A DNA stretch of 34,565 nucleotides, taken from NCBI GenBank assembly GCA_947588735.1, contig CANQAD010000018.1:1-34565 (forward strand), given 5' to 3'. This document shows, one piece after another, positions 4,587 to 17,830 of the stretch. The notes under the pieces were generated by a model. It saw only the letters and a program-made list of their open reading frames with translations, was not told where the DNA came from and ran no database searches. Source of the DNA: an uncultured Akkermansia sp. Lineage in GTDB: Bacteria; Verrucomicrobiota; Verrucomicrobiia; Verrucomicrobiales; Akkermansiaceae. The position numbers and the translations under genes were made by a program. Numbering within the stretch: position 1 is the first letter of the stretch; every line of letters starts with the position of its first letter.

Positions 4587-4641
4587 GAAAAAAAGACCGG
4601 CAGCCCCACTCGAAGCTGCCGGTGGCGAGGCAAACTCGCGT
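4586..4641 (-). terminator. Double-hairpin intrinsic terminator of autotransporter 1
   Basis: Reading on the minus strand after the autotransporter stop there are two hairpins: GCGAG/CTCGC (4639-4625), then the perfect 8-bp stem CCGGCAGC/GCTGCCGG (4622-4597) followed by CTTTTTTTCT. This is a strong rho-independent terminator. Near-identical copies end the next two minus-strand genes at 7957-8010 and 11115-11164. Confidence 0.9.
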
Positions 4642-4669
4642 TTTTGTTTACTTACTGTAATGGTGAGCG

Positions 4670-7423
4670 TCAGAAGGCTATGCTGACCCCTCCGCCGACG
4701 CTCCACGAATTGGAACCGCTGCGCAAGTCTGCTTCACCGTTGACATAGAGCAGTGTGTCTCTGTCCACAGGTATGCTGACGCTCGCACCGAGCTGCGCCC
4801 CCACGACACCTGTTTCGGCCGAACGAACCCGTCCGCTGTAACCGCGGTCGCCGAGGAAGGAAACATCGGCCTCGCTGCGGCGGTCGCCCATATCTACTGC
4901 CACATTGGCTCGAATCTCCAGCACAGCAGCGCGACTGAATGTCTGTTCTCCACACTGAGACACAAAGCGAGCTCCGGCTGTCAACGTTGTCAACGTGGAT
5001 TTCTGTTCTCCCACGTGGAGTCCGGCATCACCGGCCCCATTTTCATTGTAGCCATCCATCTTTGTGGTAATGACCGAAAGACCGATCAGAGGCTGAAGAA
5101 GGCTGCTCTTCTGCTCATTAAGCGATATATCATAAGCCAATTCGTAGGCAGCTCCGAATCCGGCGCCGTTCGTACTCCCGCTGGTAGCGTAGTCGAGCAC
5201 ATAGGGCGCAACACCGCCACGGATAGTGCGGTTGAACTCAGCATCCGAGAAACCGGCGGACACGACGAAGCTGTGGTGGAAATTGCCGCTGCGATGGTGA
5301 GCGTAGAGGTTCACATAGTAGGTATCCAGATCTCCCTCGGCATGATCCGCCGCATCAACTTTCAAGTCGCCATAGGAAGCAACGAGGGAGAGACCGATGA
5401 TGGGACCTCCGCCTTGGAGATCTTTCTCCACGCCTACACCGGCTCCCCATGAGTTGTGTTCATATCCGGTTTCATCCCCGGATCGATCCAACTTGGCGCT
5501 GCCGCCCATACCTTCCACCCACACGCGCATCCCTTGGTCAGAATCGTCACGTGCCGCCGGTTCTTGACCGAGGCGAGCTGCCCGCGAAGCAGCGCGAGAG
5601 AGCTGCCCACGCATGGCATCCCGTTGTGCGGCTCCCAGCGCCGGCACAGCGCTGCCGACCACGGCAGACATGAGCCGCTGAGCCTCACTTCTGGCTGCGG
5701 CCGGATCAATGTTTGTTTCCTCGATGAGTCTTTCAGTGATCCCTGACTCAGCGATCATCGCAGCCATGGCTACAGCCGGTTGCCCTCCCTGCCCGATTTG
5801 AGCAAGTTCCGCGATGACACCTGCCACATTCCTCAGCTCTGAGGAGGTCGAATAATTCATGGCGTGGTAGAGCATGCCTGCGCCGGTCCGCGTGTTTTCG
5901 GAGATCGCAAGAGGCGCAAAAATGGTATCGGGATTGGGGTCATCCGGAATAGGCTCGATGGGGGCATCCGGCAGGTTGGCTCCATCGCCGGCTATCACGT
6001 AGAGTTGGACGACATTTCCATCCTTCTTCTCGACCATCAGATACGGATCGTCATATCCATCCACGGTGACCGTTACATTCTCCTTGAGCCATTTATTGAG
6101 CTCATCCTCGCTGTTCTCATCCGTATATTGTGATTGTGGACCCAGACGGAACCATGTCGTGTAGTCTTCACTGTACATATCCCCCGTCTGACTGTACATC
6201 ATAGACGTGAGAACGATGCCGTTTGACTGAATGAGAAGCTGTTTCAAATCCTTACCCGGATTCTCCGCGAATTCCACCCGAACGGCCAACTTGGTCGGGT
6301 CACCATGTCCCTCCCACGTGGTAGTCGTCAGATTAATTGCCGCAGAAGCCGTAATCTTCGCCCCCGTCTCTCCCTTCCCGTACTTCATCACCAATTTCGA
6401 CCGATCCTCCATACGGAAACTAAGCCCTCTTTGTACGAGAGGAGCATCAATACTTGAATCCCAGAAATTGCCAGCCTCAGGATCAGAGCCAATATCTTCG
6501 ACTGAGAAAGAAAACTTTCCAAGCAAAACCTTCGTGCCAGCTTCAATTGATAACGTATCTGTTATCTGAGGAACCGATGCATGCGAGAATGCGTCATATC
6601 CAATCGCGTATACATCTCCCAGATTTATCATTTGAAACTCGTTCTTGGAACCAGAAAGGACTACATTGCACCAACTCGTCGACAATTCCGTTTCCTTCGC
6701 AATAACATTGGTGAAAGTTTGTTCTGCCGGCAAAAAAAGCTCTTCGCGAGCTACACTCGCGACATCTATGTCACCCCGACCTTCTACAATCCCCTCGAAC
6801 TTCCCACCTGTTCCTATAATACTGATTTCACCGTCGTACCAATCTTCAACACTTCCTGCAAATCGAAGGGTCCCTTTTCCATTCAAAGAAGAGCACCACA
6901 CATTATCTCCTGCAATAAGCTCTCCTCCCTCTTCAATCGTCAAGCCAGGAGCAAAGGAACAGTCCCTTAGCGTAAGCTTCGCACCCTTTTGGACGACAAG
7001 TTCAGCACTATACTGATAGGCACTTGAGTCAACTCCACCCAACCTGGACTCCCCGGAGGCAAAGATAATTTTAGCGCCATTAAAAAGCGACAAACTGAGA
7101 TCATAGCTGGGAACCCACTCTCCTTCATAATAATCTCGCCAACCATCGTACGTGATCCCGCCTCTAATGGTCAGACTGGCTCCTTCTCCTACAGAGATAC
7201 TATGATGTTTGTTTTCGTCACCGTTCAGTCTTAAAGCCTTGCTCAGAGTAGCGTCTTCTCCTTCCACTTCGATACTAACCGACCCACTCGGAGTTCCTGA
7301 CAATTCCTCGAGACTTGAATTTTGGTCATCCACAGTCACAGTGACTGTACCAAATGCTGTTGTGCAGCATAGAAGAGCCGCCAGCAACGCGGCGCGCAAC
7401 GTATAAGGTAGGTGTAATTTCAT
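4670..7423 (-). CDS. Autotransporter (type Va secretion), copy 1
   Basis: A 917-residue outer-membrane autotransporter. A signal peptide beginning MKLHLPYTLRAALLAALLCC and ending near AFG leads to a passenger of about 430 residues with short repeated strand motifs (SLTIRGG, LVVQKGAKLTL, LTIEEGGEL) typical of a right-handed beta-helix. A proline-rich linker (DAPIEPIPDDPNPD) and an alpha-helical alanine-rich segment follow, then a C-terminal barrel of about 270 residues (autotransporter beta-domain) ending SVGGGVSIAF with the terminal phenylalanine used for barrel assembly. The frame is open to 7543, but the signal peptide fixes the start at 7423. There is no clear Shine-Dalgarno. Residues from WLKENVTVTV to the end match copy 2 exactly, also at DNA level, whereas the passenger has clearly diverged. 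An inverted-repeat-bounded switch lies 80-270 bp upstream. The passenger's target is unknown; adhesion is likely. Confidence 0.9.
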   Translation of the reverse strand: MKLHLPYTLRAALLAALLCCTTAFGTVTVTVDDQNSSLEELSGTPSGSVSIEVEGEDATLSKALRLNGDENKHHSISVGEGASLTIRGGITYDGWRDYYEGEWVPSYDLSLSLFNGAKIIFASGESRLGGVDSSAYQYSAELVVQKGAKLTLRDCSFAPGLTIEEGGELIAGDNVWCSSLNGKGTLRFAGSVEDWYDGEISIIGTGGKFEGIVEGRGDIDVASVAREELFLPAEQTFTNVIAKETELSTSWCNVVLSGSKNEFQMINLGDVYAIGYDAFSHASVPQITDTLSIEAGTKVLLGKFSFSVEDIGSDPEAGNFWDSSIDAPLVQRGLSFRMEDRSKLVMKYGKGETGAKITASAAINLTTTTWEGHGDPTKLAVRVEFAENPGKDLKQLLIQSNGIVLTSMMYSQTGDMYSEDYTTWFRLGPQSQYTDENSEDELNKWLKENVTVTVDGYDDPYLMVEKKDGNVVQLYVIAGDGANLPDAPIEPIPDDPNPDTIFAPLAISENTRTGAGMLYHAMNYSTSSELRNVAGVIAELAQIGQGGQPAVAMAAMIAESGITERLIEETNIDPAAARSEAQRLMSAVVGSAVPALGAAQRDAMRGQLSRAASRAARLGQEPAARDDSDQGMRVWVEGMGGSAKLDRSGDETGYEHNSWGAGVGVEKDLQGGGPIIGLSLVASYGDLKVDAADHAEGDLDTYYVNLYAHHRSGNFHHSFVVSAGFSDAEFNRTIRGGVAPYVLDYATSGSTNGAGFGAAYELAYDISLNEQKSSLLQPLIGLSVITTKMDGYNENGAGDAGLHVGEQKSTLTTLTAGARFVSQCGEQTFSRAAVLEIRANVAVDMGDRRSEADVSFLGDRGYSGRVRSAETGVVGAQLGASVSIPVDRDTLLYVNGEADLRSGSNSWSVGGGVSIAF

Positions 7424-7504
7424 AGGAATTATTTTATAGAGTCTGAATTTTCCCTTAGCCCTCACCATATACACGTAAGAGCTTTGGTACAGGAGCGAGT
7501 GTAT

Positions 7505-7522
7505 CGCATTTCGAATGAGATG
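7505..7522 (+). repeat. Left inverted repeat of switch 1
   Basis: CGCATTTCGAATGAGATG; pairs with the reverse complement of 7670-7687. The TTTCGAA core is shared by both ends and would be the strand-exchange region. Confidence 0.7.
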
Positions 7523-7669
7523 TACAGAAAAAAGTGTTATCATTTCTCGTTTTTAAGTAAGTTAACGTTCTGAGGCATCTTCGGATTTCGAAAGAAGTAA
7601 AGACGAGAGAGAGGAGGGATTGTTTCTTCAAAGCATTTTTGGTAAATATAAAACGAATACCCGTGTGCT

Positions 7670-7687
7670 CATCGTTTTCGAAAAGAG
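7670..7687 (-). repeat. Right inverted repeat of switch 1
   Basis: Minus-strand CTCTTTTCGAAAACGATG; 13 of 18 positions match the left repeat. Centre-to-centre distance of the TTCGAA cores is 167 bp, the same as in switch 2. Confidence 0.7.
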
Positions 7688-7703
7688 ATGAGCAAGCTCC
7701 CAT

Positions 7704-7956
7704 ATTGCAGAAGTTGCTGGACAGAAAAAGATTACGACTGAGACTTATACAATGGCATCTAGGGGCAACTGCATTTGAGAGATGTCGACAAGGCGATAAA
7801 TCATCTTGATCAGTTGAGCACACCAATTTCTGAAGAAAGTATACAAAATACACATACTATCAATAAATTATAAACCATACATCAAAAAAAACCGTAAATG
7901 GGAATCGTCCAAGTGGCGGAGACCGCAGGCTCATTGTCAATGTCTCTGCCCAGTCC
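7704..7956. other. Spacer between switch 1 and the terminator of autotransporter 2
   Basis: No gene is seen. A short block GACTTATACAA (7742-7752) is also found on the outer side of switch 2 (11081-11091). On the minus strand it reads TTGTATAAGTC and could be a fixed -10 element outside the switch. The rest is AT-rich filler without recognisable motifs. Confidence 0.4.
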
Positions 7957-8010
7957 CATAAAAAACCGGCAGCCCCACTCGAAGCTGCCGGTGGCGAGGC
8001 AAACTCGCGT
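7957..8010 (-). terminator. Double-hairpin intrinsic terminator of autotransporter 2
   Basis: Same structure as the terminator at 4586-4641: the stem CCGGCAGC/GCTGCCGG lies at 7966-7991 and a T-run is read from 7965 downwards. The identity with the other copy begins at the base before the hairpin (7965 against 4596), so the terminator is part of the duplicated or converted tract. Confidence 0.9.
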
Positions 8011-8038
8011 TTTTGTTTACTTACTGTAATGGTGAGCG

Positions 8039-10765
8039 TCAGAAGGCTATGCTGACCCCTCCGCCGACGCTCCACGAATTGGAACCGCTGCGCAAGTCTG
8101 CTTCACCGTTGACATAGAGCAGTGTGTCTCTGTCCACAGGTATGCTGACGCTCGCACCGAGCTGCGCCCCCACGACACCTGTTTCGGCCGAACGAACCCG
8201 TCCGCTGTAACCGCGGTCGCCGAGGAAGGAAACATCGGCCTCGCTGCGGCGGTCGCCCATATCTACTGCCACATTGGCTCGAATCTCCAGCACAGCAGCG
8301 CGACTGAATGTCTGTTCTCCACACTGAGACACAAAGCGAGCTCCGGCTGTCAACGTTGTCAACGTGGATTTCTGTTCTCCCACGTGGAGTCCGGCATCAC
8401 CGGCCCCATTTTCATTGTAGCCATCCATCTTTGTGGTAATGACCGAAAGACCGATCAGAGGCTGAAGAAGGCTGCTCTTCTGCTCATTAAGCGATATATC
8501 ATAAGCCAATTCGTAGGCAGCTCCGAATCCGGCGCCGTTCGTACTCCCGCTGGTAGCGTAGTCGAGCACATAGGGCGCAACACCGCCACGGATAGTGCGG
8601 TTGAACTCAGCATCCGAGAAACCGGCGGACACGACGAAGCTGTGGTGGAAATTGCCGCTGCGATGGTGAGCGTAGAGGTTCACATAGTAGGTATCCAGAT
8701 CTCCCTCGGCATGATCCGCCGCATCAACTTTCAAGTCGCCATAGGAAGCAACGAGGGAGAGACCGATGATGGGACCTCCGCCTTGGAGATCTTTCTCCAC
8801 GCCTACACCGGCTCCCCATGAGTTGTGTTCATATCCGGTTTCATCCCCGGATCGATCCAACTTGGCGCTGCCGCCCATACCTTCCACCCACACGCGCATC
8901 CCTTGGTCAGAATCGTCACGTGCCGCCGGTTCTTGACCGAGGCGAGCTGCCCGCGAAGCAGCGCGAGAGAGCTGCCCACGCATGGCATCCCGTTGTGCGG
9001 CTCCCAGCGCCGGCACAGCGCTGCCGACCACGGCAGACATGAGCCGCTGAGCCTCACTTCTGGCTGCGGCCGGATCAATGTTTGTTTCCTCGATGAGTCT
9101 TTCAGTGATCCCTGACTCAGCGATCATCGCAGCCATGGCTACAGCCGGTTGCCCTCCCTGCCCGATTTGAGCAAGTTCCGCGATGACACCTGCCACATTC
9201 CTCAGCTCTGAGGAGGTCGAATAATTCATGGCGTGGTAGAGCATGCCTGCGCCGGTCCGCGTGTTTTCGGAGATCGCAAGAGGCGCAAAAATGGTATCGG
9301 GATTGGGGTCATCCGGAATAGGCTCGATGGGGGCATCCGGCAGGTTGGCTCCATCGCCGGCTATCACGTAGAGTTGGACGACATTTCCATCCTTCTTCTC
9401 GACCATCAGATACGGATCGTCATATCCATCCACGGTGACCGTTACATTCTCCTTGAGCCATCCGTTGAGCTTCGACTCGCTGTCCACATCCGTATATTGT
9501 TCGGTCACCGAAAACGTGCGATCTCCGTCATCATGCTCCCCGTATTCAATGGAAGTAAGAACAATGCCGTTCGCCTGGATGAGGAGTTGCTTCAAATCCT
9601 TACCATGGTTCTCTGCGAATTCCACCCGAACGGTCAGCTTGGTTGGGTTTGATGTGTCTTCCTCCCACGTTGTCGTCTTCAACACAATTGCCCCGGACGC
9701 CGTGATTTTGGCTCCCATCTCACCCTTGCCATACTTCACCACCAGCGTCGACCGATCTTCCATGTCAAAGCTGAGTCCCCTCTGCCTGACAGGTTCATAT
9801 ATCCGCGAATCAAACTTTACGGAATCTGATTCCTCGTCATAATGCCAAGTGGGGGCATCGAGAAGTTTTCCGAGAGAAACTTTCGTCCCCTCCTCCATGG
9901 TCAACGTGCTTCTGGTTTGCAATTTGTCCGGATTGTCCCACGTATCAAAAGAAATGTCATGAACGCTTCCTAACTGCAGACCTTTGAACTCGTCCTTTGC
10001 GCCGGCGAGAGCGACATTGCCGCAGGCCACGGACAGGTTGGTCCCTTGAGATGTGACGTCGGTGAAAGTTTGATGGCTCGTGTCCAGACTTGGTTTCGAA
10101 GGGTTGAAAAGACTACCAACTTCAATAAATTCTTCGCCCTCTATCCTCCCGCTGAAATTCCCACCGGCGCCATCAATGAAAAAGCTACTAAAACCATAAA
10201 CCGGATTCTTTCGAAGGGTCAAAGTTCCACTCCCGTTCAGACTTGTACAGTTCAAGTCGGCCACGGACATTTCTCCGCCTTTCTCAATCGTTAAGATGCC
10301 AACTCGTGAAGTAATATCATCCGAAATTGTGACCTTTGCTCCGTTCTGCACGACAATCTCGCCTGGCCCGCCCCACACAGTACCCAGTTTCGATTCTCCT
10401 GCTGCAAAGATGATCTTTCCTCCCGGCTTGTCTTGATTACCCAATTCTTTCTCAAACAAATGGAGTATTCTCCCCCCACCCAGGTAGTTACCGTTGTACG
10501 TGAGTCCTCCCATGATGGTCAGGCTGTGTCCTTTTTCCACAATAATGTAATGGTCCGCCCCACTATCCAGTGTTAAAGCATGGCCCAAGATGGCGTCTTC
10601 CCCCTCCACCACAATACTGACGGACCCACTCGGAGCTCCTGTCAATTTTTCAAGACTTGAATCTTGGTCATTTACAGTCACAGTGACTGTACCAAATGCC
10701 ATTGTGCAGCACAAGAGCGCCGCCAGCACCGCATTGCGTAAAATATAGGGTAATCGAAGTTTCAT
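8039..10765 (-). CDS. Autotransporter (type Va secretion), copy 2
   Basis: A 908-residue paralogue of the autotransporter at 4670-7423. It has a signal peptide starting MKLRLPYILRNAVLAALLCC, a beta-helix-like passenger (SLTIMGGLTY, IVVQNGAKVTI, LTIEKGGEM), the same DAPIEPIPDDPNPD linker, the alanine-rich helical segment and the C-terminal barrel ending SVGGGVSIAF. The open frame extends up to 10942 through the switch region, but those 59 residues precede the signal peptide and are not expected to be translated; the start is 10765. There is no Shine-Dalgarno. The last 474 residues match copy 1 exactly, with identical DNA, while the passengers differ by many substitutions and small indels. This is the pattern left by recent gene conversion of the barrel. 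Confidence 0.9.
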   Translation of the reverse strand: MKLRLPYILRNAVLAALLCCTMAFGTVTVTVNDQDSSLEKLTGAPSGSVSIVVEGEDAILGHALTLDSGADHYIIVEKGHSLTIMGGLTYNGNYLGGGRILHLFEKELGNQDKPGGKIIFAAGESKLGTVWGGPGEIVVQNGAKVTISDDITSRVGILTIEKGGEMSVADLNCTSLNGSGTLTLRKNPVYGFSSFFIDGAGGNFSGRIEGEEFIEVGSLFNPSKPSLDTSHQTFTDVTSQGTNLSVACGNVALAGAKDEFKGLQLGSVHDISFDTWDNPDKLQTRSTLTMEEGTKVSLGKLLDAPTWHYDEESDSVKFDSRIYEPVRQRGLSFDMEDRSTLVVKYGKGEMGAKITASGAIVLKTTTWEEDTSNPTKLTVRVEFAENHGKDLKQLLIQANGIVLTSIEYGEHDDGDRTFSVTEQYTDVDSESKLNGWLKENVTVTVDGYDDPYLMVEKKDGNVVQLYVIAGDGANLPDAPIEPIPDDPNPDTIFAPLAISENTRTGAGMLYHAMNYSTSSELRNVAGVIAELAQIGQGGQPAVAMAAMIAESGITERLIEETNIDPAAARSEAQRLMSAVVGSAVPALGAAQRDAMRGQLSRAASRAARLGQEPAARDDSDQGMRVWVEGMGGSAKLDRSGDETGYEHNSWGAGVGVEKDLQGGGPIIGLSLVASYGDLKVDAADHAEGDLDTYYVNLYAHHRSGNFHHSFVVSAGFSDAEFNRTIRGGVAPYVLDYATSGSTNGAGFGAAYELAYDISLNEQKSSLLQPLIGLSVITTKMDGYNENGAGDAGLHVGEQKSTLTTLTAGARFVSQCGEQTFSRAAVLEIRANVAVDMGDRRSEADVSFLGDRGYSGRVRSAETGVVGAQLGASVSIPVDRDTLLYVNGEADLRSGSNSWSVGGGVSIAF

Positions 10766-10842
10766 AGAAATAATTGTGAATGATTTTTTACCTCTGCACA
10801 CATCGTTTGTCCGTGAGCGCTTCGGTACAAGGACGAGTATAT

Positions 10843-10860
10843 CGAATTTTAAAAACGATG
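10843..10860 (+). repeat. Left inverted repeat of switch 2
   Basis: CGAATTTTAAAAACGATG; pairs with the reverse complement of 11008-11025 at 13 of 18 positions, including the whole TTTTAAAA core. Confidence 0.7.
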
Positions 10861-11007
10861 AGCACACGGATATTCGTTTTATATTCACAAAAAATGCTTT
10901 GAAAAACCAGTCCCTCTTCTCTCTCGTCTTTATCCTTTTCAAAATCTCGGGATGCCTCAGAACGCTAACCTACTTAAAAACGAGAAATGGTAACATTTTT
11001 TCCTGTA

Positions 11008-11025
11008 CATCTCTTTTAAAAAGAG
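11008..11025 (-). repeat. Right inverted repeat of switch 2
   Basis: Minus-strand CTCTTTTTAAAAGAGATG. Its core agrees with the left repeat of the same locus, but not with the TTTCGAA cores of switch 1, as expected if recombination takes place within each locus. Confidence 0.7.
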
Positions 11026-11114
11026 ATAAGCAAGTGTCCATTTCCGGCAGTCTCAGGATGCAAAGAGCTTACGAGTGAGAGACTTATACAACGGCGTCTC
11101 TTACGCTTGGCGGT

Positions 11115-11164
11115 GAAAAACCGGCAGCCCCACTCGGAGCTGCCGGTAGCGAGGCAAACTCGCG
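11115..11164 (-). terminator. Double-hairpin intrinsic terminator of glnN
   Basis: GCGAG/CTCGC followed by CCGGCAGC/GCTGCCGG (11146-11121) and a short T-run on the minus strand. It differs from the two autotransporter terminators by only a couple of bases, so the same terminator module closes three consecutive genes. Confidence 0.85.
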
Positions 11165-11171
11165 TTTCAGA

Positions 11172-13274
11172 CTATTTGCTGTGGATGTTGAGCATCTGGG
11201 CGTAAGTAGGCACCGGCCACAAGTCGGCGTCCACAATGGCTTCGAGGGCATCAACGGTAACGCGGGCGGACTCCATGGCTTCTTTCATGCACACGGGACA
11301 GCCCTTATCGATGGCAGCCTGCAAAGCCTGAACTTTAGCGGGCAACTCATCGTAGAGTTTGCCCACGGCGTTGGCTTTGTCCTCTGCGGCCTTGAGACCG
11401 GCTTTGATGCCGGCAGCCTTGATGGCGGCAATGGTCCCGCAGATTTCTGTCATCTGACCGGCTATGGCCGGTAGGTAAATGGTCTGCAACATGTTCAGGC
11501 AGGTCTTGGCCTCAATGTGAATGAGCTTCAGGTAGCTCTCCGCCTGCACCTCCTTGCGGGCCAGAAGTTCGGCCTTGGAGAGGATGTTGTACTTTTTCAT
11601 GAGCTTGATGGTATCCGGGCGAGCGAGCACTTCAAGTGCCTCCGGCGTGGTCTTAAGGTGCGGCAAACCGCGGCGCTCAGCCTCCTTAATCCACTCCTGC
11701 GAGTAGCCATTGCCATTGAAGATGATACGATCGTGCTTCGTGATCATCTCCTTAATCATGGCGCTGACCACGGTGTTAAAATTACGCTTGCCTACGACGG
11801 GTTCAAGCCTGGTGGCCACCTCATCCAGGGCTTCGGCCACAATGGTGTTGAGGACAGCCATGGGCCACGCGCAAGTTTGCGAGGAACCAACGGCACGGAA
11901 CTCAAACTTGTTCCCCGTGAAAGCAAAGGGAGAAGTCCTGTTGCGATCGGTCGTGTCCTTCGGTAGAGTTGGCAGCACATCCACGCCCAGCTCCATGGTG
12001 GTCTTGGCAGCAGAGCTCTTGGCGCCGCCGGCCTTGATCTGTTCAATGATGTCGGTGAGCTGATCTCCCAGGAAGATGGAGATGATGGCGGGCGGAGCCT
12101 CATTAGCGCCCAGACGATGGTCGTTGCCGGCTTTAGAGATCGAAGCTCGCAGCAAATCGGCATGTTTGTCCACACCCTGGATCACGCAGGCGAGGAAGGT
12201 CAGGAAAAGCAAGTTGCTGTGCGGCGTCTTGCCCGGAGAGAAGAGCGACCCGAGTTCCGGAGTGCCGAGCGACCAGTTGTTGTGCTTGCCGGAACCGTTC
12301 ACGCAAGCGTACGGCTTCTCATGCAACAGACAAACGAGGTTAAATTTGAGAGCCTGCCGTTGGAGAATATCCATAATCATCACGTTGTGGTCCACAGCCA
12401 CGTTGCTCGCCTCAAAGAGCGGAGCAATTTCAAACTGCGCGGGAGCCACCTCGTTGTGACGCGTCTTGGCCGGCACGCCGAGGGCCCACAGCGCGTGATC
12501 CACGGAGTTCATGAACTCCAGCACTCTCTCCTTGATGGAGCCGAAGTAGTGATCCTCCATCTGCTGATGCTTGGGCGGCAGACAGCCGAAAAGGGTGCGC
12601 CCGGTCTCAATGAGATCCGGCCGCTGCAAGTACAAACTGCGATCAATCAGGAAATATTCCTGCTCCGCGCCCAAATTACTCTCCACACAGCTGGGCTCCA
12701 CCCCAAAACACCGCAACACGCGCGTTGCATGCTTCGACACAGCTACCATCGAACGCAACAGGGGCGTCTTCTTGTCCAAAGCTTCGCCTGTGTACGAACA
12801 AAAAGCCGTGGGAATGCAGAGCGTGGCAGTGTGCTCGGTGCGTTTGATGAACGCCGGAGATGTGGGATCCCATGCCGTGTAGCCACGTGCCTCAAATGTC
12901 GCACGTATCCCGCCGGAGGGGAAAGAGGAGGCATCCGGCTCAGCCTGAATAAGGTTCTTGCCTGTGAACTCGCAGATCATGCCCCCCTTCCCATCCGGTT
13001 CCACAAAAGAATCGTGCTTTTCCGCCGTAGCGTCCGAAAGCGGTTGGAACCAGTGCGTGTAGTGCGTGGCTCCTTTGGAGAGCGCCCACACCTTCATCGC
13101 CTGTGCCACTTCATCCGCTATGCTCATGTCCAGCTTCCCTCCGCGCTGGACCGTGGCAAGCATCTTCTTGAAAGCGCTTTTGGAAAGGTATTTCTCCATT
13201 GTTTTGATCCCGAAAGTATCGCTGCCGTACAATGCCGTCAACGCCTCTTCTGCACTGGTGTCTTTCGTTTCCAT
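11172..13274 (-). CDS. glnN: Glutamine synthetase type III
   Basis: A 700-residue cytoplasmic enzyme that makes glutamine from glutamate, ammonia and ATP. GSIII is larger than GSI and is typical of Bacteroidetes, cyanobacteria and Verrucomicrobia. Family landmarks are LGAEQEYFLID (201-211), RHNEVAPAQFEIAP (272-285), NGSGKHNNWSLGTPE (326-340), a DHRLGANEAPPAIISIFLG block and a FTGNKFEFRAVGSSQ segment. The long C-terminal helical extension of the type is present. The start at 13274 gives the normal N-terminus. A consensus sigma-54 promoter lies 69-85 bp upstream and a double-hairpin terminator 8 bp beyond the stop, so the gene is probably transcribed alone and controlled by nitrogen supply. Confidence 0.96.
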   Translation of the reverse strand: METKDTSAEEALTALYGSDTFGIKTMEKYLSKSAFKKMLATVQRGGKLDMSIADEVAQAMKVWALSKGATHYTHWFQPLSDATAEKHDSFVEPDGKGGMICEFTGKNLIQAEPDASSFPSGGIRATFEARGYTAWDPTSPAFIKRTEHTATLCIPTAFCSYTGEALDKKTPLLRSMVAVSKHATRVLRCFGVEPSCVESNLGAEQEYFLIDRSLYLQRPDLIETGRTLFGCLPPKHQQMEDHYFGSIKERVLEFMNSVDHALWALGVPAKTRHNEVAPAQFEIAPLFEASNVAVDHNVMIMDILQRQALKFNLVCLLHEKPYACVNGSGKHNNWSLGTPELGSLFSPGKTPHSNLLFLTFLACVIQGVDKHADLLRASISKAGNDHRLGANEAPPAIISIFLGDQLTDIIEQIKAGGAKSSAAKTTMELGVDVLPTLPKDTTDRNRTSPFAFTGNKFEFRAVGSSQTCAWPMAVLNTIVAEALDEVATRLEPVVGKRNFNTVVSAMIKEMITKHDRIIFNGNGYSQEWIKEAERRGLPHLKTTPEALEVLARPDTIKLMKKYNILSKAELLARKEVQAESYLKLIHIEAKTCLNMLQTIYLPAIAGQMTEICGTIAAIKAAGIKAGLKAAEDKANAVGKLYDELPAKVQALQAAIDKGCPVCMKEAMESARVTVDALEAIVDADLWPVPTYAQMLNIHSK

Positions 13275-13753: not shown

Positions 13754-13825
13754 TAGCCCCGACAGGAATCGAACCTGTATTTGCCCTTTAGGAGAGGGCC
13801 GTTCTATCCATTGAACTACGAGGCC
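13754..13825 (-). tRNA. tRNA-Arg (anticodon CCT)
   Basis: The minus strand folds as a tRNA. The acceptor stem is GGCCTCG/CGGGGCT, followed by U8-A9, a D-arm GTTC..GAAC, an anticodon stem GCCCT/AGGGC with loop CTCCTAA, and a T-arm CAGG/CCTG with TTCGATT. The CCT anticodon decodes AGG. The 3' CCA is not encoded. It follows the unknown gene ending at 13871 on the same strand. Confidence 0.93.
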
Positions 13826-17488: not shown

Positions 17489-17598
17489 AAAAACTGCGCA
17501 ATACGCACGTTCTCAACAAATTGTAATCGTTTAATCGTAAATGAATTATCGAAAACAGAAAATAAAAACGCTTTTTCCTAAGCGGTTCAGGGCAAACG
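17489..17598 (+). repeat. Intergenic repeat unit, copy A
   Basis: The unit reads CTGCGCAAtaCGCAC, then TCAACAAATtGTAATCG, ATCGTAAAT, a small hairpin CGCTT-TTCCT-AAGCG and a GGCAAAC end. Copy B at 17734-17830 has the same order of blocks with variable spacing. No protein is encoded. Function is unknown. Confidence 0.5.
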
Positions 17599-17733
17599 CA
17601 TTTGAAAGAAGTTCATCAACGGAGAAAATGACCTTGTTGGCTGATATGATAGTTGATTCGCATCAAAAAATGACAACAAGCAGTTATCATGATGATGGGT
17701 CACAAGAACTCTCCTGCCTACGTTCATAATTCG

Positions 17734-17830
17734 AAAAAAACCTGCGCAACGCGCACATGATCAATAAATCGTAATTCGCGCATCGTCAATCGTAAATAGC
17801 AACCGCATTTCCTAATGCGATTGCCCAAAC
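17734..17830 (+). repeat. Intergenic repeat unit, copy B
   Basis: It contains CTGCGCAAcgCGCAC, TCAATAAATcGTAATTCG, AATCGTAAATA and the hairpin CGCAT-TTCCTA-ATGCG, followed by TGCCCAAAC. It aligns block by block with copy A about 245 bp upstream. A shorter echo (CGTAATTCGTAATTCGTAAAT) lies at 21806-21826 beside another gene end. The hairpin arms differ between copies but still pair, which argues for a conserved structure. Confidence 0.5.

Follow-up and report, generated by a model that had tools for sequence, protein, structure and literature searches.

A tandem pair of Akkermansia autotransporter genes with an identical barrel block and predicted invertible split promoters

The window—the whole analysed stretch of 34,565 nucleotides from an uncultured Akkermansia sp. 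(contig CANQAD010000018.1)—contains two autotransporter genes, A and B, which probably represent a modular, phase-variable pair of surface adhesins: judging from the sequence, they would share their barrels owing to recombination and each would be preceded by its own invertible, split promoter. The observations behind this reading are an exact identity of 1.5 kb, incongruent barrel and passenger trees, inverted segments in front of the genes, paired sites with matching cores and a -10-like signal bound to one position. A single commensal locus would thus join two mechanisms of diversity, the exchange of passengers on a homogenised barrel and on/off DNA inversion. A broader proposal, put forward with moderate confidence, is that the Akkermansia inversion site may act as the 17-bp spacer of a promoter, the -35 element being swapped against a fixed -10 element, and that in this clade a new family of such sites, the cores of which match within a locus and vary between many loci, would place dozens of genes (for autotransporters, glycans and a type VI operon) under the independent control of one tyrosine recombinase family, with passengers being shuffled on shared barrels by recombination.

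Sequence features of the tandem pair

Genes A and B are arranged in tandem on the minus strand, between cydAB and the gene of the type III glutamine synthetase. The features of both are as follows:

4670..7423, minus strand: autotransporter gene A (917 aa) with the predicted signal peptide MKLHLPYTLRAALLAALLCC and a PF03797 barrel (Pfam 6e-37)
8039..10765, minus strand: autotransporter gene B (908 aa) with the predicted signal peptide MKLRLPYILRNAVLAALLCC and a PF03797 barrel (Pfam 7e-37)
6093..7423, minus strand: diverged passenger A of the G084/G157_C68/G177_1/G181_2 type, its N-terminal part predicted as a stacked-strand beta-helix (alignment, tree, model)
9462..10765, minus strand: diverged passenger B of the G159/G157_C26 type (alignment, tree)
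4596..6092, minus strand: identical block, gene A copy, with terminator, barrel, helix, linker and WLKENVTV codons (0/1497 mismatches to 7965-9461)
7965..9461, minus strand: identical block, gene B copy (the same 0/1497 comparison)
4596..4623, minus strand: intrinsic terminator after gene A, 12 pairs, T tail (terminator search)
7965..7992, minus strand: intrinsic terminator after gene B, 12 pairs, T tail (terminator search)

The C-terminal beta-domain PF03797 was recognised in both proteins above the gathering score (E 6.1e-37 for A and 7.4e-37 for B), and a hydrophobic N-terminus is directly visible in the autotransporter sequence. Concerning the passenger, its residues about 25-270 were modelled as stacked short strands, many of them with pLDDT of 80-95, within an AlphaFold model that was built from 10 sequences, is poor as a whole (mean pLDDT 49.7) and has an unusable barrel half. 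The model gave weak Foldseek matches to beta-helix proteins (best E 1.1e-3), and a PDB sequence search with the passenger returned no relative. The role of A and B as adhesins is a prediction from these sequence features. The predicted arrangement—signal peptide, a passenger modelled as beta-helical, a helix and a C-terminal PF03797 barrel—resembles that of the type Va autotransporters, such as pertactin, Ag43 and Hap, from which the pair differs in that its passenger is unrelated to theirs in sequence and its barrel is homogenised between paralogues bearing diverged passengers. It should be noted that one terminator sequence is common to A, B and the glutamine synthetase gene (4592-4671, 7961-8040 and 11116-11196, the third one at 84-85%); it perhaps marks the junction where an autotransporter first entered the locus.

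The repeated barrel and the diverged passengers

The sequence-only reading claimed that positions 4596-6092 and 7965-9461 are identical at an offset of 3369, and the comparison indeed gave 0 mismatches over 1497 nt, the block being bounded by mismatches at 4595/7964 and 6093/9462. It extends, as had also been stated, over the terminator, barrel, helical segment, linker and WLKENVTV codons. To the left of the block the identity is wholly gone within five bases; to the right it continues at ~83% for roughly 100 nt, until the diverged passenger begins. The passengers, taken from the signal peptide to the linker, share 62.6% of their nucleotides and 57.5% of their amino acids, in agreement with the claim that they differ widely.

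A perfectly resolved repeat of 1.5 kb is somewhat surprising in so fragmented an assembly (2.2 Mb in 110 contigs, 89% complete), the contigs of which break at repeats of about 30 bp, i.e. far shorter than the block. If the barrels truly differed by some per cent or the assembler had copied one of them—graph simplification yielding a single consensus for both places—this would be in line with the fragmentation and completeness just given, with the contig ends falling at much shorter repeats and with the block being the sole 100% repeat longer than 1 kb in the roughly 380 kb of the genome compared. Such an artefact is nevertheless quite improbable, because each copy has its unique, correctly placed flanks that match the locus of the closest relative, the genome G159, on both sides, because other assemblies repeat the pattern on separate contigs with a few residual differences (99.4% and 95.8%), and because the incongruence between passengers and barrels is independent of the exact identity. 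Strong purifying selection alone would agree with the barrels being more conserved than the passengers in most comparisons, but the probability that it produced the identity is practically negligible, since the 1497 nt exhibit 0 differences also at synonymous sites and in the terminator, and the orthologous barrel of G159 differs by 3.8%.

The evolutionary trees were calculated by maximum likelihood, separately for the barrel and passenger halves, with the autotransporter genes from eight related Akkermansia genomes, and they disagree strongly with each other. The barrels of A, B and G159 form one clade with support of 100/100, those of A and B being identical, whereas the passenger of A falls with those of G084, G157_C68, G177_1 and G181_2, and that of B with those of G159 and G157_C26; the placement of both passengers in one clade was rejected with an AU p of 5e-45. 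The sequence-only reading had recommended a check for grouping of the barrels by strain and of the passengers by locus; the barrels were found to cluster largely by species and the passengers by type across species. Its suggestion of gene conversion or unequal crossing-over, leaving variable passengers on a constant barrel, is supported by the incongruence of the trees.

Homogenised barrels were also seen in related genomes of two other species. Two autotransporters of G186 located on different contigs (C19 and C71) have barrels 99.4% and passengers 68.7% identical, and for the pair C26 and C58 of G157 the corresponding values are 95.8% (100% over most of the 3' part) and 60.3%. These loci being unlinked, the homogenisation favours gene conversion—or the replacement of passengers—over unequal crossing-over alone. 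Between G157_C68 and G177_1, the passenger is 91% identical and a short stretch of the barrel 77%. The barrels of the tandem pair of G177, at 86.9%, are not homogenised, so that the process is recurrent, not constant; the autotransporters on contig C45, from the same genome as A and B, are not homogenised either (68% over 915 nt).

Origin of the locus

In G159, a single autotransporter gene is positioned between cydA and the glutamine synthetase gene, and the pair in the window is therefore probably derived. The alignments of this locus with the window gave 93% and 89% for the flanks, 96.2% for the barrel and 75.5% for passenger B. With 0 substitutions in 1497 nt between A and B, compared with 3.8% to G159, the last homogenisation would, provided that the assembly is correct, have taken place well after the split of the species. 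The promoter region of A is closest to those of B and G159 (74% and 81%, respectively), the others reaching at most 61%. A scan of named genomes with the autotransporter gave no match; that with the type III glutamine synthetase led to a single close relative among them, an Akkermansia sp. of the sheep cecum (85%), and the glutamine synthetase locus there is without the autotransporter pair.

The parsimonious reading is that of a tandem duplicate in which the passenger was exchanged and the barrel made identical by conversion. The single autotransporter gene that ancestrally stood between cydA and the gene of the type III glutamine synthetase would have undergone a tandem duplication, and one of the copies would have come to carry a passenger from a different lineage. 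Recombination would have kept the two genes identical in linker, barrel and terminator, most likely as gene conversion over a tract that stops at the WLKENVTV codons or, to the same effect, as replacement of a passenger cassette inside a shared scaffold. The barrel may have been copied or the passenger swapped in, and the steps may have followed in either order. A very recent tandem duplication with a passenger replaced from another locus or strain, instead of an old barrel being converted, is less likely: both the promoter region and the barrel of A belong to the lineage of B and G159, the passenger alone being the foreign part, but the promoter regions of A and B, 74% identical overall and 85% in the segment described below, are far older than a barrel of 100% identity. 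The barrel would thus have been homogenised after the duplication, unless the promoter was exchanged, too.

Predicted invertible segments in front of both genes

A self-comparison of the window revealed a feature absent from the sequence-only reading, namely that positions 7502-7678 and 10852-11028 are 85% identical in the inverted orientation, inside collinear (direct) flanks. Upstream of each gene, a segment of ~167 bp is enclosed by palindromes in inverted orientation, which read ATCTCTTT-NNN-AAAGAGAT or nearly so, the segments of A and B having opposite orientations; flipped in silico, the segment of A aligns with that of B and with those of 13 relatives, G159 among them. Both places (7502-7690 and 10840-11028) have the make-up of an inverton, i.e. 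inverted repeats flanking an intergenic segment before a gene. The sites and segments, given without strand, are as follows:

7502..7522: gene-proximal inversion site of A, core TCG, TATCGCATTTCGAATGAGATG (site search)
7512..7678: predicted invertible promoter segment of A, about 167 bp, orientation opposite to B and to 13/13 relatives aligned (alignment)
7670..7690: distal inversion site of A, core TCG on the inverted strand, CATCGTTTTCGAAAAGAGATG (site search)
10840..10860: gene-proximal inversion site of B, core TTA, TATCGAATTTTAAAAACGATG (site search)
10851..11018: predicted invertible promoter segment of B, oriented like the relatives, predicted OFF (alignment)
11008..11028: distal inversion site of B, core TTA on the inverted strand, CATCTCTTTTAAAAAGAGATA (site search)

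The palindrome at the two ends of each segment is 21 bp long, and its inverted copies agree in their 3-nt core (TCG for A and TTA for B); a site-specific recombinase would flip the two segments independently of each other. From their sequence, the segments probably flip and switch A and B on and off, thereby varying the cell surface. Different cores at neighbouring elements would keep these from recombining with each other; the tandem pair of G177 likewise has two different cores. Opposite orientations were also seen for the paralogous segments on contigs C8 and C60, this being a comparison between loci, not of one locus within one population.

Concerning the whole genome, the palindrome with one mismatch allowed was counted 52+55 times on the two strands—a near-palindrome can score on both—compared with 5 times in the reversed control, and the strict site ATCTCTTTNNNAAAGAGAT is present at 35 places, compared with 0 in that control. 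The 3-nt cores are equal as an inverted repeat in 47 of the 51 site pairs (18% expected) and as a direct repeat in one; the spacing within the pairs is mostly 165-169 bp. The genes behind the sites encode giant autotransporters (with MKLHLP.. signal peptides), glycosyltransferases, an MBOAT acyltransferase and the type VI sheath/Hcp operon.

Proposed promoter architecture

At the gene-side site, a hexamer of the TGGACA/TGTACA type inside the segment precedes the palindrome, and TAnnnT stands outside the segment, beyond a spacer of exactly 17 bp. In the window, the elements are as follows:

7498..7503, minus strand: fixed -10-like element TACACT of A, outside the segment (register comparison)
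7521..7526, minus strand: -35-like element TGTACA at the segment end now adjoining gene A, predicted ON (promoter scan, register comparison)
7666..7671, plus strand: weak hexamer TGCTCA at the other end of segment A (register comparison)
10836..10841, minus strand: fixed -10-like element TATACT of B, outside the segment (register comparison)
11004..11009, plus strand: -35-like element TGTACA of B, now at the far segment end (register comparison)

TAnnnT at the 17-bp spacer was found on 45 of 61 gene sides and on 1 of 61 other sides, with at most 7 at any other offset, where the loci are partly homologous and these and the related counts thus represent non-independent trials. A direction rule, fixed in writing ahead of the retrieval of 40 additional stretches (from G186, G159 and G084), gave the gene direction of the held-out loci correctly in 22 cases and wrongly in 3, with 3 ties. 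The hexamer T[GT][GT]AC[AT] is present at exactly one end in 32 of the 42 two-site loci (the other 10 being without a clear pattern), at the far end (OFF) in 26 of them and adjacent to the gene (ON) in 6. It should be pointed out that generic sigma70 scans of the whole upstream region gave mixed answers and that only the comparison in the fixed register was informative.

It is proposed that the recombination site would be the 17-bp spacer of a sigma70-like promoter, the -10 element being fixed beside the gene and the -35 element riding on the end of the segment, so that flipping would join or separate the two. The current promoters read TGTACA-17-TACACT for A and TGCTCA-17-TATACT for B; from this spacing A is predicted to be ON and B to be OFF in the assembly. 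The TGTACA of A and B matches TTGACA at 4/6 positions and also resembles a part of the palindrome arm.

Invertons known from other bacteria hold the promoter inside the segment, and the present ones could be of that ordinary kind, in which case the outside TAnnnT would simply belong to the site of the recombinase; in favour of this, both TGTACA and TATACA look like the extended arm of the palindrome (TGTACATCTC...GAGATGTACA). This is, however, unlikely, because the -10-like signal is one-sided (the above 45/61 vs 1/61) though both sites face the same recombinase, because TAnnnT predicts the gene direction on held-out loci, and because invertons of the A. muciniphila type, with an unrelated site sequence, have the same register. 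In G028, a genome with the CGGATT motif of that type, 14 of 15 invertons have a TTG[AT] hexamer at exactly one end in the same -35/site/-10 register, and TA is found at the -10 position on 8 of 11 gene sides vs 2 of 11 other sides. The split layout thus appears to be common across the genus, with two unrelated site sequences. No description of a split invertible promoter, or of an inversion site as a spacer, was found in the literature searched; Jiang et al. (2019) lies outside that scope, and the priority of the description is uncertain. Such a rule would make it possible to tell from an assembly, for most invertons, whether they are ON or OFF, which would be useful for metagenomes and for predicting the surface proteins that Akkermansia shows in the gut.

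Candidate recombinase and comparison with known invertons

The flipper is probably a tyrosine recombinase of the C24/L106 family, a candidate pointed to by the distribution of its gene. The genome contains 12 tyrosine-recombinase genes (PF00589), of which the one at C24:259-1257 (L106) has orthologues of about 70% or more in G002, G084, G107, G151, G157 (fragment), G159, G171, G177, G181 and G186. An orthologue is present in 11 of the 12 sampled genomes of the genus with sites and in 0 of the 47 without sites, the exception being G185, with 2 sites and without a close orthologue. A second recombinase (C8) tracks the same clade more loosely. Co-occurrence was rejected as a proof of the recombinase, since C8 also follows the clade and the signal is confounded by phylogeny. 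Mpi is a serine recombinase; a serine invertase of the Mpi/Hin type was rejected as the flipper for lack of a match to PF00239 in the 89%-complete genome.

The invertons of A. muciniphila, group 138 in PMC11892184, are likewise spread genome-wide, as elements of ~166 bp and ~310 bp with palindromic sites and a matching 3-nt core before surface genes; one of them is near two autotransporter-domain proteins (PMC11892184), and the cps1 inverton underlies phase variation of the capsule (PMC13343947). Their motif is given as CGGATT..AATCCG (Jiang et al. 2019, as cited in PMC13343947). The sites described here follow ATCTCTTT-NNN-AAAGAGAT or close variants, in contrast to CGGATT-NNN-AATCCG, and the source genome contains 35 exact sites of the new motif and 4 matches to the CGGATT motif, the latter having 24-83 matches in each of seven other genomes of the genus. 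Based on their sequences, the present elements appear to be of the same kind as those of A. muciniphila, with a different site family, and would add a second family of sites, with a candidate recombinase of its own, to the invertons known from Akkermansia. In Bacteroides fragilis, too, surface loci (those of the capsules) have invertible promoters, many of which are served by a single recombinase, Mpi, as outlined in the background of PMC13343947 and PMC11892184; the Bacteroides promoter sits within the inverton, whereas here it is predicted to be split across the site.

Additional observations

The start of a type VI secretion operon (TssB, TssC, Hcp) is positioned directly behind a pair of inversion sites at L089:3115-5949 (G000 contig C51) and in L312 (G084), which suggests that the type VI system may be phase-variable in the clade. 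Four giant autotransporters (L072, L076, L085 and L091 on contigs C3, C8, C35 and C60) have near-identical 5' ends and inverton flanks, up to 98.8%, and the combinations of their flanks suggest an exchange between loci; that on C8 is predicted ON, those on C3 and C60 OFF. Rows of three inversion sites, with two adjacent segments, were found at several giant autotransporters (L071, L074, L075, L077, L081, L082, L083, L085, L086 and L090) and would permit more than two promoter states. The G000 contigs C19, C28, C34, C56, C103, C104 and C107 end at or near inversion sites, which is what one would expect of an assembly tangled by the presence of both orientations or by near-identical elements.

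In the window itself, positions 17587-17826 represent a dispersed repeat of ~240 bp without a match in Rfam, with at least 11 further near-full-length copies (89-93%, one 73%) in both orientations in the fetched part of the genome. The sole Rfam match in the window is a tRNA gene at 13754-13825 on the minus strand. The first positions, 1-294, match the beginning of contig C80 (19-312) at 95% identity; a gene for a XerC/D-like recombinase is located on that contig.
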